Below are positions 1-55,530 of a stretch of 64,000 nucleotides of DNA, in pieces. The translations under genes and the position numbers were made by a program. The notes below the pieces were generated by a model. That model was not told where the DNA came from and searched no databases. It saw only the letters and a list, made by a program, of their open reading frames with translations. Positions within the stretch are counted from its first letter, which is position 1. Every line of letters starts with the position of its first letter. Source of the DNA: Patescibacteria group bacterium (lineage in GTDB: Bacteria; Patescibacteriota; Microgenomatia; UBA1406; GWC2-37-13); contig BPJC01000004.1 of assembly GCA_026004415.1 (NCBI GenBank), forward strand, positions 1-64,000. The letters are read 5' to 3'.

Positions 1-1019
1 CTAATACTCCAACACCAGCTCCAACAAGTTATTATAGCACTTGTGAAAATAATAGATGTGTTGTGAGAACAGGTACTCCTCCAGCAAATAGACGACGCTG
101 TAGTGTTGATGCAGATTGTGTAAATAATCCAACTAGTACTCCGACCAGACAACCAACCAGTACTCCGACCAGACAACCAACCAGTACTCCGACCAGACAA
201 CCAACCAGTACTCCGACCAGACAACCAACCAGTACTCCAAGCAGACAACCAACCAGTACTCCAAGCAGACAACCAACCAGTACTCCAAGCAGACAACCAA
301 CCAGTACTCCAAGCAGACAACCAACCAGTACTCCGACCAGACAACCAACCAGTACTCCGACCAGACAACCTACTAGTACTCCGAGCAGACAACCAACCAG
401 TACTCCAAGCAGACAACCAACTAGTACTCCGACCAGACCTATTGCAAATAATACTCCTACTAATACTCCATCTAGTCAGCCAAGAAATATAGTATTAACA
501 TTTAAAGTAAAATTCCAGGGAATAAACAATCCAGTTGTAACAACATTGCCTGTCAATGTAACTGTTAGAAGAGCTTTTGAAACAGGAGTTTCCAAGACAG
601 TAACATTTAATTATAATCAACAACAAAGAGTGTGGATTGGACAATCCAGCTTTAATTTGTCGCCATCAGATGGTTACTTTATTTATATTAAAGGACCAAA
701 GCATTTAAGAAAAAAAATCTGTGATGAAATGCCGATTGAGTCAGCAGGAGCTGAAGGAACCTATATTTGCTCTGGATCAGGCTTGACTATAACTAATGAC
801 AAAGTTTATGACTTCAGTAAAATAACTTTGCTTGCTGGAGATTTAGATCCACAAAATGGTGTCATTAACTCATATGACTGGGCATTAGTAAGAAACAGCA
901 TTGGAACTACAGATGAATCTGCAATCAGGCTAGCAGATATAAATTATGACGGAAGAGTAAATGTTCAGGATTATACTTTGATAATGTATTCATTATCAAT
1001 TAAATTAGATGAATTTTAG
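1..1019 (+). CDS. Secreted dockerin-domain protein with octapeptide stalk (5' partial)
   Basis: The window edge cuts this gene. The frame beginning at base 3 is open to the edge, so the first in-frame GTG (63) is not a convincing start. About 338 residues are visible. In order they are a Cys-containing segment (STCENNRC, CSVDADC), 13 tandem PTSTP[TS]RQ octapeptides forming an extended Pro/Thr stalk, a Val/Thr-rich probable beta domain, and a C-terminal dockerin-like pair of calcium-loop repeats (GDLDPQNGVINSYDW and ADINYDGRVNVQDY). Type I dockerins bind cohesin domains, and the next two genes encode cohesin-like proteins, so a surface complex is a reasonable inference. The signal peptide would lie outside the window. 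Confidence 0.75.
   Translation, partial: NTPTPAPTSYYSTCENNRCVVRTGTPPANRRRCSVDADCVNNPTSTPTRQPTSTPTRQPTSTPTRQPTSTPTRQPTSTPSRQPTSTPSRQPTSTPSRQPTSTPSRQPTSTPTRQPTSTPTRQPTSTPSRQPTSTPSRQPTSTPTRPIANNTPTNTPSSQPRNIVLTFKVKFQGINNPVVTTLPVNVTVRRAFETGVSKTVTFNYNQQQRVWIGQSSFNLSPSDGYFIYIKGPKHLRKKICDEMPIESAGAEGTYICSGSGLTITNDKVYDFSKITLLAGDLDPQNGVINSYDWALVRNSIGTTDESAIRLADINYDGRVNVQDYTLIMYSLSIKLDEF
129..437 (+). repeat. 24-bp tandem repeat, 13 copies (coding)
   Basis: Thirteen copies of a 24-bp unit encode PTSTP[TS]RQ; the last copy lacks its Gln codon. Copies 1-4, 9, 10 and 13 carry CCGACC (Thr), copies 5-8 and 12 carry CCAAGC (Ser), and copy 11 carries the hybrid CCGAGC. The block arrangement points to recent duplication of multi-copy segments, so copy number probably varies between strains. 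Confidence 0.95.
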
Positions 1020-1020
1020 T

Positions 1021-1026
1021 TATAAT
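1021..1026 (+). promoter_or_regulatory. Candidate -10 box of the first cohesin gene
   Basis: TATAAT lies 7 nt before the ATG at 1034, immediately after the dockerin gene's stop. It predicts a separate leaderless transcript. No clear -35 was seen. Confidence 0.5.
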
Positions 1027-1033
1027 AATTTAT

Positions 1034-1711
1034 ATGGAAGAATTTAATAATCAAGAAAACACATCAAAAGCAACTGTTTTGTATAAAATTGTAAAAACAA
1101 ATTATGCATTTTTGGCATTGATCATCCTTGTTTTAGTTTCAATATCAGTTTTTCTTTATTATAGATGGTCTAACAATCAAGATGAAGCCATAACTGTTTC
1201 AGAACAAGAAGTTTTTTTAGATACAGCATCAGAATCTAAAGAATCTAACGCAGATGAAAAATTTGCACAAGAAGCTGAAAGTTATGAAGCTTTAGGTAGT
1301 ATATATACCTATTCTGATAAAGAGTCAGTAAGTGTAAATGAAAATATAGAAACATTTATAGTTTTAAATTCTAATAATACGGATATTACTGGTTTTGATG
1401 TTGTAGTAAATTATGATCCAAATGTTCTTAAATTTTTAGATATTGGAAATTTCTTAGCAAAAAGACTTGATATTATTTATCAAGACAATTCTGGAGTCAT
1501 AACCATATCAGCTGTAAAAAAACTATCAGACAAAGATCAATTAGTATTTAATGACGAAGATGTGTTGGTTTTGCGATTTCAAGCTTTGAAACCTGGAGAA
1601 ACATCTGTAAGTGTAGTTAGGTCTTCAGAGTTTGGTATTACACAGTTCGTTGATAGTCAGAATAAGGTTTTTACTCCAAATGTTGCTGGTTTAAGTCTAA
1701 AAGTTGAGTAA
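1034..1711 (+). CDS. Membrane-anchored cohesin-domain protein
   Basis: This 225-residue protein has a short cytoplasmic N-terminus and one transmembrane helix at about residues 28-45 (FLALIILVLVSISVFLYY). An acidic linker follows, then a cohesin-like beta-sandwich at about residues 90-225. The characteristic segment is TGFDVVVNYDPNVLKFLDI, followed by a late strand LVLRFQAL. Cohesins are the receptors for dockerins, and the preceding gene ends in a dockerin. The single N-terminal helix would hold the cohesin outside the cytoplasmic membrane. There are 14 nt between the dockerin stop and this ATG, and 5 nt before the next gene's ATG. The cohesin assignment rests on motif shape only. Confidence 0.65.
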   Translation: MEEFNNQENTSKATVLYKIVKTNYAFLALIILVLVSISVFLYYRWSNNQDEAITVSEQEVFLDTASESKESNADEKFAQEAESYEALGSIYTYSDKESVSVNENIETFIVLNSNNTDITGFDVVVNYDPNVLKFLDIGNFLAKRLDIIYQDNSGVITISAVKKLSDKDQLVFNDEDVLVLRFQALKPGETSVSVVRSSEFGITQFVDSQNKVFTPNVAGLSLKVE

Positions 1712-1716
1712 ACTTG

Positions 1717-2520
1717 ATGAAAAAATTATTAACAATTCTTTTTTATACAGCAATATTTTTTTTTATTTATAATGGTGTTGTTAATGCCGCTTATTTTTAT
1801 TTTGAGCCAGCTAGTTCTACTATAAATCAAGGCAGTATAGTAACTTTGCAGTTGAATATAAATACAGAAAATGAAAATGTAAGAGGCGCTGAAGTTTATA
1901 TTACTTTTGATCCAAGTTTGGTTTCAGTTGAATCAATAAGTCCAGGCAATTATTTCGATACTGTACAGCATGTTATAAATTCTAATGAGGCTTATGTTAC
2001 CGCATTTATGGAAAATGTGGATTATGTAAATGGATCAGGAACTATTGCTAGCATTACTTTTAAAGCTGTGTCAGATGGTTCAGCAACTATTAATTTTGAT
2101 TGCAATCGTTCTGGTATCTATAAAGATGATGTTGATTCAACAAATTTATTAGTCTGCTCTTCTAATCAAACTGCGCAAATACAGGTCCAAGGAGCATCAG
2201 GTTCAGGAGGTTCATCAAGTTCAGGAGGATCATCAAGTTCAGGAGGTTCATCAAGTTCAGGAGGATCATCAAGTTCAGGAGGTTCATCAAGTTCAGGAGG
2301 ATCATCAAGTTCAGGAGGATCATCAAGTTCAGGATCGTCGTCAGGTTCGTATTCATCAAGTAATTCTTCAGGATCAGGTTCTTCAGACCAGGGATCCTCA
2401 AACCAACAATTAACAGAACTTCCTAAATCTGGAAATTTTGAGAACACTTTATTTTATGCTTTGCCCGGACTTGTCGTTACTGGGTTGGGGTTGGCTATTA
2501 AATTGGTATTATTTAAATAA
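1717..2520 (+). CDS. Secreted cohesin-domain protein with Gly/Ser stalk and LPxTG-like anchor
   Basis: ATG at 1717 is preferred to the adjacent TTG at 1714. The protein has about 267 residues: a signal peptide (ending near VVNAA), a cohesin-like domain at about 25-150 (GAEVYITFDPSLVSVESI, then GTIASITFKAV), seven GGSSSS hexapeptides followed by a Ser/Gly linker, and a C-terminal LPKSG motif, hydrophobic helix and final Lys. That tail resembles a sortase sorting signal with Ser in place of Thr; no sortase gene is in the window. It could equally be a simple C-terminal membrane anchor. Together with the preceding two genes it suggests paired cohesins presenting a dockerin partner at the cell surface. 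Confidence 0.65.
   Translation: MKKLLTILFYTAIFFFIYNGVVNAAYFYFEPASSTINQGSIVTLQLNINTENENVRGAEVYITFDPSLVSVESISPGNYFDTVQHVINSNEAYVTAFMENVDYVNGSGTIASITFKAVSDGSATINFDCNRSGIYKDDVDSTNLLVCSSNQTAQIQVQGASGSGGSSSSGGSSSSGGSSSSGGSSSSGGSSSSGGSSSSGGSSSSGSSSGSYSSSNSSGSGSSDQGSSNQQLTELPKSGNFENTLFYALPGLVVTGLGLAIKLVLFK
2206..2331 (+). repeat. 18-bp tandem repeat, 7 copies (coding, GGSSSS)
   Basis: Seven 18-bp units encode Gly-Gly-Ser4. The second Gly codon mostly alternates between GGT and GGA, which suggests that 36-bp double units were duplicated. The unit acts as a flexible stalk between the cohesin domain and the C-terminal anchor. Confidence 0.9.
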
Positions 2521-54174: not shown

Positions 54175-54477
54175 TTAAATCTTGACAATTTTTAATTTAG
54201 TTAATAACTGTCTATGGCCTTTGTTTTTTCTATACCTTACTTTAGCTTTAAACCTTCTTATATTAATTTTATCAGATTTTATCTCTTCAACGATCTCTGC
54301 TTTAACTTTATTGTTTAAAACAGGCTCTCCTATCTGAGATCCTTTTTCATCAAATATTGCCAATGTCTCCAATTCTACTGTTTTATTATTAGATTCAATT
54401 CTTTCAACATTTATAACATCTCCTTCTTTTACCAAATATTGTTTACCTCCTGTTTTAACGACAGCTAATTTATTCAT
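54175..54477 (-). CDS. rplU: 50S ribosomal protein bL21
   Basis: This 100-residue protein starts MNKLAVVKTGGKQYLVKEGD and ends KVRYRKNKGHRQLLTKLKI. It is the usual partner of bL27. It lies 15 nt after rodA and 12 nt before rpmA. Confidence 0.96.
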   Translation of the reverse strand: MNKLAVVKTGGKQYLVKEGDVINVERIESNNKTVELETLAIFDEKGSQIGEPVLNNKVKAEIVEEIKSDKINIRRFKAKVRYRKNKGHRQLLTKLKIVKI

Positions 54478-54492
54478 AAGTTATATTTTAAT

Positions 54493-55530
54493 TTATTCTT
54501 TTAATTCTAACAAACCAATTGATAAAAGTAAAGCAATGAACGCAGAACCGCCATAGGAAAAAAGGGGTAATGGTATGCCAGCTATTGGAAACAGATTAAG
54601 ATTCATCGCTATGTTTATAATTACTCTATAACTTAAGTAAACAGCCAAACAAAGATGCGTTAACCCTATATAACTGGAAAGTTGACCAATATTGCCTTTT
54701 TTTATCACTGAAAAAATTAGATTGTAAATAAATATTGCATACAAAATTATTAAAAAAACACCTCCTATTAGTCCTGTTTGTTCTACAAAACTTGCAAAGG
54801 CAAAATCAGTATGAGATTCAGGCAGAAAAAAAAGTTTAGACTGTGTGGACCTTCCAATTCCTTTACCTATAAACCGACCCGATCCTAAAGCTATCTCAGC
54901 TTGTTTTGAGTTATATGATTTTTCAGAAGTTGATTCATTAAATGCAGAAAAAAAATGTATGATTCTATTTTTTTGATAATCTTTTAAAGATCCCCATAGC
55001 ACTGGAAAACTCAATGTTGAGACTAAAACAGCAGATATAATTATTTTTTTGGGAATTTTGCTAAAAAACAATGCTGTTATAAATATTGGTATTAGGTTTG
55101 TTGCAGTGGTAAAGTCAGGTTGCAGAAAAATTACAATGAATGAGACAGCAGTAATACCTAATCCATGCAAAAAGTAGATTACTGGTTTGAGTTCCAGATC
55201 ATCTTTATTAAATAAGAGAGATATATAAAAGATATAAAATATTATTAAAAATTCAGACGGTTGAAGGTTGAAAAAACCTAAACTTATCCAGCGTTTTGCT
55301 CCTTTAATCTCTTCTCCAAAAAACAACAATGAAAGATTTAACAGCCAAATAAGCCAAAAGATAACCGGAGTTATCTGTTTTAAAAGCAGATTAAACTTTT
55401 TAGTTAATAAATACACAACTAATCCTAGTAATAAAAAAATTAGTTGTCTGTATGCATAATAGGTCTGAATTCCAATCAAATTGATTATGCCAAGTGCGCT
55501 TATAAAAAAAATAATAATAATGTTGGCCAT
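54493..55530 (-). CDS. rodA: RodA-type SEDS peptidoglycan polymerase
   Basis: This 345-residue protein has about ten transmembrane helices. SEDS signatures are GAKRWISLGFFNLQPSEF, QPDFTTATN and FLPESHTDFAFA, where the Asp of HTD is in the catalytic loop. The ending FSYGGSAFIALLLSIGLL is typical. It polymerises lipid II for elongation. ATG shares a base with the ileS stop (TAATG). Confidence 0.92.
   Translation of the reverse strand: MANIIIIFFISALGIINLIGIQTYYAYRQLIFLLLGLVVYLLTKKFNLLLKQITPVIFWLIWLLNLSLLFFGEEIKGAKRWISLGFFNLQPSEFLIIFYIFYISLLFNKDDLELKPVIYFLHGLGITAVSFIVIFLQPDFTTATNLIPIFITALFFSKIPKKIIISAVLVSTLSFPVLWGSLKDYQKNRIIHFFSAFNESTSEKSYNSKQAEIALGSGRFIGKGIGRSTQSKLFFLPESHTDFAFASFVEQTGLIGGVFLIILYAIFIYNLIFSVIKKGNIGQLSSYIGLTHLCLAVYLSYRVIINIAMNLNLFPIAGIPLPLFSYGGSAFIALLLSIGLLELKE

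Follow-up and report, generated by a model that had tools for sequence, protein, structure and literature searches.

A conserved operon of one dockerin protein and two differently anchored cohesins, a candidate surface display system in Patescibacteria

Cohesins and dockerins that take no part in cellulose degradation have long been known. What do a dockerin-ended stalk protein and two cohesin proteins do side by side in the small genome (1.01 Mb, in agreement with the earlier note) of a Patescibacteria group bacterium? The window analysed here comprises the 64,000 nucleotides at positions 1 to 64,000 of contig BPJC01000004.1 (C4; assembly GCA_026004415.1), and the three genes lie at its very beginning. 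We suggest, with a probability of roughly 0.7, that the locus serves, outside any cellulosome, to display proteins on the cell surface by means of cohesins and a dockerin.

Three genes and their domains

As the earlier note had described, the contig opens with three adjacent open reading frames on one strand (Table 1), separated by gaps of 14 bases (dockerin gene to the membrane-anchored cohesin, T) and 5 bases (T to the sortase-type cohesin, S). Base 1 of the window is also base 1 of contig C4, which cuts off the 5' end of the dockerin gene; 338 residues are present, and the N-terminus and full length lie beyond the contig start. For S, ATG at 1717 is a likelier start than TTG at 1714, and a convergent uvrA-like gene lies downstream of S in the window species.

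Table 1. Features of the dockerin-cohesin operon in the window.
Feature	Position	Strand	Remarks and basis
Dockerin-ended stalk protein	3..1019	+	First operon gene; 5' end cut by contig start (open)
Cys-rich knot CENNRCVVRTGTPPANRRRCSVDADC within stalk	54..128	+	Sequence; 69-74% identical stretch in G001 C1
Tandem repeat of PTSTP(T/S)RQ, stalk predicted to be disordered	132..480	+	Sequence; Pfam PT repeat 40.4 bits
Conserved pre-dockerin beta domain (GPKH domain), motif KGPKHLRKKIC	486..815	+	Alignment of relatives
Dockerin	816..1016	+	Pfam PF00404; PDB dockerins by sequence
T cohesin, N-terminal TM	1034..1711	+	Pfam PF00963 (E 4e-7), domain bounds, AF2, Foldseek
S cohesin: signal peptide, cohesin, Ser/Gly linker, LPKSG, C-terminal TM	1717..2520	+	Pfam PF00963 (E 8.1e-12)
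Cohesin domain of S, residues 24-162 from TTG 1714, with S-lineage Cys pair	1783..2199	+	
C-terminal sorting-signal-like segment: LPKSG, hydrophobic stretch, one terminal Lys	2419..2517	+	Sequence

The identities assigned in the earlier note, which had proposed profile searches with PF00404 and PF00963, are confirmed by scores above the Pfam curated cut-offs for all three domains: 31.2 bits against 22.9 for the dockerin (Dockerin_1, E 2.5e-7), and 30.8 and 46.0 bits against 24.1 for the cohesins of T and S. These scores and the recurrence of the same features in dozens of genomes rule out chance domain matches.

T has a short cytoplasmic N-terminus, a transmembrane segment near residues 15-45 and a C-terminal cohesin at residues ~88-225. 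Its AF2 model is of moderate confidence (mean pLDDT 66) and has 82 Foldseek matches in the PDB at E<=0.001, the best being 2jh2 (1.8e-8); the best 50 of these 82 matches are all cohesins or cohesin-bearing constructs. The fold expected by the earlier note is thus found for T by model and Foldseek, S being judged by profile only. By sequence, the T profile reaches among solved structures only the Clostridium perfringens NagJ-type cohesins 2jh2 and 2ozn, and in a sequence-profile search the S lineage matches 3l8q best (E 2.2e-7).

The anchors of the two cohesin proteins differ, as had also been claimed: T has its N-terminal transmembrane segment, and S ends in LPKSG, a variant of LPXTG, with a C-terminal transmembrane segment. 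The tail of S after the hydrophobic segment is a single terminal Lys, and its Gram_pos_anchor score of 14.1 bits is under the Pfam cut-off of 20. LPx[STA]G ends 37 of the 40 complete S proteins of relatives. All 57 related genomes have a sortase match, and the window genome has two sortases, both with the His, Cys and Arg present in sequence.

The dockerin matches the solved dockerins 3ul4_B (E 8e-5) and 5nrm_B (E 9e-5) in a sequence search of the PDB. Its second calcium loop (DINYDGRVNVQD) is canonical; the first (DLDPQNGVINSYD) is irregular, having 13 residues, one extra, as in most relatives of its type. The AF2 model of the dockerin with the GPKH domain, made from only two sequences, is unusable (pLDDT 39). 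What remains of the stalk protein consists of the Cys-rich knot, an unbroken run of ~20 PTSTP(T/S)RQ-type units, a beta domain of ~110 residues and the dockerin. The nearest relative found, a sister named Patescibacteria group bacterium KatS3mg091 (L065), has the same operon; its contig opens inside the same dockerin gene, just past the stalk, and the G001 sequence is identical. At the end of contig C1 of G001, an open reading frame that shares the Cys-rich knot encodes, in order, a hydrophobic segment, SQSRA and a domain of ~540 residues for which a Pfam search gave no match; the knot closes this repeat, a PT stretch follows, and then comes the domain once more. The last bases of that contig again encode a PT stretch, in a broken frame. 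We infer that this reading frame, likely the N-terminal part of the stalk, and the dockerin-bearing part are two halves of one repetitive gene broken by the assemblers. No counterpart of the stalk N-terminus was found at another contig end or elsewhere in the window's own genome. At L147:4003-4924 (G001, C1 end) the tail of the stalk gene runs on in several frames, as if at a low-quality contig end.

Conservation of the operon and the two cohesin lineages

Cohesin matches occur in 51 and dockerin matches in 53 of the 57 related genomes. Iterated profiles, applied to 61 stretches, show dockerin protein, T and S in this order and on the same strand in at least 34 of the 57, and parts of the arrangement in six more; broken contigs and the fetching of only some loci make 34 a minimum. 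The idea in the earlier note that the three proteins act together is upheld in outline by this kept order of dockerin, transmembrane cohesin and sortase-type cohesin. Because the operon recurs in most relatives, it looks like a general protein-mounting device.

Overlaps of 1-14 bases between the operon genes are frequent in relatives. In several of them, a 98-residue membrane protein of no family (L094:4921-5217) lies before the cassette and a membrane-anchored fn3-like protein of ~200 residues (L094:9354-9941) after it, both with counterparts in L099 and L128; beyond the fn3-like protein are genes similar to those for site-2 protease, ribosomal protein L28 and peptide deformylase. Both membrane proteins may belong to the system; neither was found beside the window's operon. 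In another relative, a dockerin match (G027:C2:275127-275333) has an in-frame TAA, possibly reflecting a pseudogene or an assembly error.

In a tree of 142 cohesin domains, made by a short search over 145 columns that left deeper forks unresolved, 41 of the 42 rows of one branch are S (SH-aLRT 95), and 26 rows of family f1, T only, are held together with an SH-aLRT of 99. Two Cys are present in 42 of 49 S domains and may form a disulfide, and 43 of 45 T domains have none. S is the better conserved of the two: most of its rows are 28-42% identical to the protein of the window, versus 16-23% for T. Judging by sequence, T and S are old, distinct and mostly vertically inherited lineages.

Within the window genome, the Pfam cohesin model matches four places, two in the window, one on C1 (54374-54727) and one on C11, and each cohesin protein has one cohesin. 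The C1 protein is a second S-type cohesin with LPKSG (L003 / L135:8270-8953, C1 ~54270-54950), located 12 bases after an open reading frame with VirB4-like features; the short contig C11 (L002) carries nearly the same protein again, which may be a strain variant that entered the assembly. Searches with Dockerin_1 and with a type B profile (for a second dockerin type, see below) both return only the window dockerin. The genome-wide cohesin and dockerin searches thus give three cohesin genes for one plug, with enzyme cargo not detected. The only carbohydrate-enzyme-like giant noticed, an exported protein of 2626 residues that contains PT-rich linkers and weakly matches DUF5060 (L146:2421-10301, C2 ~184420-192300), has neither a dockerin call nor an LPXTG-like tail. 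An NCBIfam search gave no useful names.

Proposed surface display and the alternatives

Behind the hydrophobic stretch, 71 of 81 dockerin proteins versus 14 of 38 T proteins have a signal-peptide-like small-x-Ala site, and the strict site [ST][KR]A is found in 28 of these dockerin proteins and in no T protein; these patterns were read from sequence motifs, not from a signal-peptide predictor. The simplest reading is that the dockerin proteins would be cut from the membrane and need cohesins to stay, T being an uncleaved anchor. In the display system that we suggest, the dockerin protein would be exported and cleaved from the membrane, which would leave a long PT-rich stalk with the C-terminal dockerin as its sole attachment device. 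T would sit on the outer face by its uncleaved N-terminal membrane anchor, and S would be held there by its C-terminal hydrophobic tail and probably be attached to the wall through one of the two sortases that the genome encodes. Binding of the dockerin to T, S or both with calcium would then mount the stalk in such a way that its N-terminal modules face away from the cell. A role of the stalk as an adhesin for host or surface, suggested in the earlier note, would be a possible further function. Where relatives have more dockerin proteins, these sockets would receive further cargo, and those dockerin proteins that bear cohesins of their own may act as a second tier.

Directly before 50 of the 116 dockerins in the loci lies a GPKH domain (type A); the rest are mixed (type B). 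A cohesin of their own is carried by 19 of 49 type A versus 2 of 49 type B proteins (within the order; p 3.7e-5, ignoring relatedness), which would fit a two-tier scaffold; the presence of cohesin-bearing dockerin proteins in a genome and that of type B dockerins are not significantly associated (p 0.19). We tentatively raise the possibility, which we regard as doubtful, that membrane-held T and sortase-held S form a standard two-tier surface platform in this branch, in which proteins with GPKH-type dockerins would dock to T or S and would often provide cohesins for the second dockerin type on cargo, the window species having a minimal version with one stalk.

Alternatively, the N-terminal hydrophobic segment of the stalk could itself hold it in place, which would leave the tip dockerin to reach the cohesins of neighbouring cells of the same population rather than those of its own cell, giving rise to aggregation. 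The dockerin proteins do have long N-terminal hydrophobic segments with the putative cleavage site farther from the core than usual, so that some perhaps stay uncleaved, and the dockerin lies at the extreme C-terminus behind a long disordered stalk. However, T lacks the signal-peptide-like site present in most dockerin proteins, and docking in cis by operon partners is simpler, so that we consider adhesion in trans unlikely.

Order was read within the 57 relatives; a sample of 380 genomes of the phylum gives presence only. Here, cohesins are found in 112 and dockerins in 149 genomes (E<=0.001), with both in 76, a cohesin alone in 36, a dockerin alone in 73 and neither in 195. The co-occurrence has an odds ratio of 5.6 (p 2.6e-13), a statistic that, like all associations reported here, ignores relatedness. 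Distance co-variation between dockerin and cohesin gave a partial r of 0.39 for T in a first run, ~0.2 for T and S alike within the family and ~0.05 with a neighbouring-gene control in 14 genomes. That each domain stands alone in many genomes of the phylum would suit three genes that are neighbours without mutual binding, the cohesins serving other ligands and the dockerin being a calcium-stabilised terminal fold. Set against this are the order and close spacing conserved across families, the co-occurrence in the phylum and the failure of the genome-wide search to find a second dockerin for the cohesins to serve; we hold such a mere neighbourhood to be quite improbable.

In a Pfam search of 108 dockerin proteins of relatives, thermolysin-like peptidase domains were found in 6, beta helices in 4, fn3 in 3, VWA in 2 and CARDB in 2; single proteins have lectin-like, sulfatase or phosphatase domains, and the GH39, GH42, GH14 and GH141-insertion models are each matched by at most one of the 108, in distant relatives. 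As far as these models tell, the dockerin cargo in relatives is mostly proteins without a recognised family. The reading offered for Ca. Shapirobacterales (PMC9123182), a cellulosome or another enzyme-degrading complex, would draw on the same two domain families and on these few glycoside hydrolase, sulfatase or phosphatase matches, but it is very improbable given the rarity of each such family, the giant C2 protein without a dockerin call and a sole genomic dockerin on a stalk protein. For this genome we reject it, in line with the earlier note, because two independent profile searches return only that one dockerin; neither a dockerin on a plant-cell-wall-degrading enzyme nor a multi-cohesin scaffoldin was found in the window genome.

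The display system that we favour is supported by the domains, the close spacing and kept order of the genes, the two lineages, the fold match of T, the contrast in cleavage sites, the SQSRA behind the hydrophobic start of the likely N-terminal stalk part in G001, the sortases and the co-occurrence. It is weakened by the irregular first calcium loop, by the 73 genomes that have a dockerin without a detected cohesin, by the single Lys and sub-cut-off Gram_pos_anchor score of S, by the poor dockerin model and by a distance co-variation that singled out neither T nor S.

Relation to known systems and significance

Non-cellulosomal cohesins and dockerins have been described in ANME archaea (PMC9012536, which cites earlier reviews). 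Like those of Archaeoglobus fulgidus and ANME (PMC9012536), the cohesins and dockerins described here lie outside cellulose degradation on diverse surface or secreted proteins, and in those organisms too some dockerin proteins also bear cohesins. However, the ANME proteins are variable and include scaffoldins with up to five cohesins, whereas here a fixed operon encodes two receptors with different anchors and one cohesin each, conserved across families. As in the Ruminococcus cellulosome with its sortase-linked scaffoldin (PMC11557425), a cohesin protein with a C-terminal sorting signal would hold dockerin proteins on the cell, the docking being predicted here; in contrast to that system, enzyme cargo was not detected, each anchor has one cohesin and there is an additional, N-terminally membrane-anchored cohesin. 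The NagJ-type cohesin of C. perfringens (2jh2, 2ozn), the best fold match of T, is likewise non-cellulosomal but part of a secreted glycoside hydrolase, whereas T is a stand-alone membrane anchor. The best profile match of S is to the type II cohesins of an Acetivibrio cellulolyticus adaptor scaffoldin (3l8q), which are tandem cohesins in a cellulosome, whereas S has one cohesin, a Cys pair invariant in the aligned set and a sorting-signal-like tail of its own.

In Ca. Shapirobacterales (Microgenomates, CPR), expressed cohesin and dockerin genes were read as a cellulosome, and a similar claim for Roizmanbacterium is cited there (PMC9123182). This is probably the same kind of system; the available part of that paper contains no analysis of operon or anchoring. 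In a partial literature search, in which papers on CPR cohesins were few, we found no published account of a dockerin > T > S operon. The dockerin-domain protein SEML1_0315 is among the essential genes of a cultivated Saccharibacterium, with host glycans suggested as its target (PMC10633639).

How proteins are fixed to the surface of ultrasmall CPR cells, and thereby how host contact is made, is largely unknown in the field. Two conserved receptors that share a defined candidate plug provide a testable answer to the question of surface attachment, and the operon argues against taking cohesins and dockerins in CPR genomes as evidence of cellulose degradation. Searches for the plug could list the surface cargo of uncultured species, and the Saccharibacterium dockerin protein suggests that related parts are testable in laboratory co-culture.
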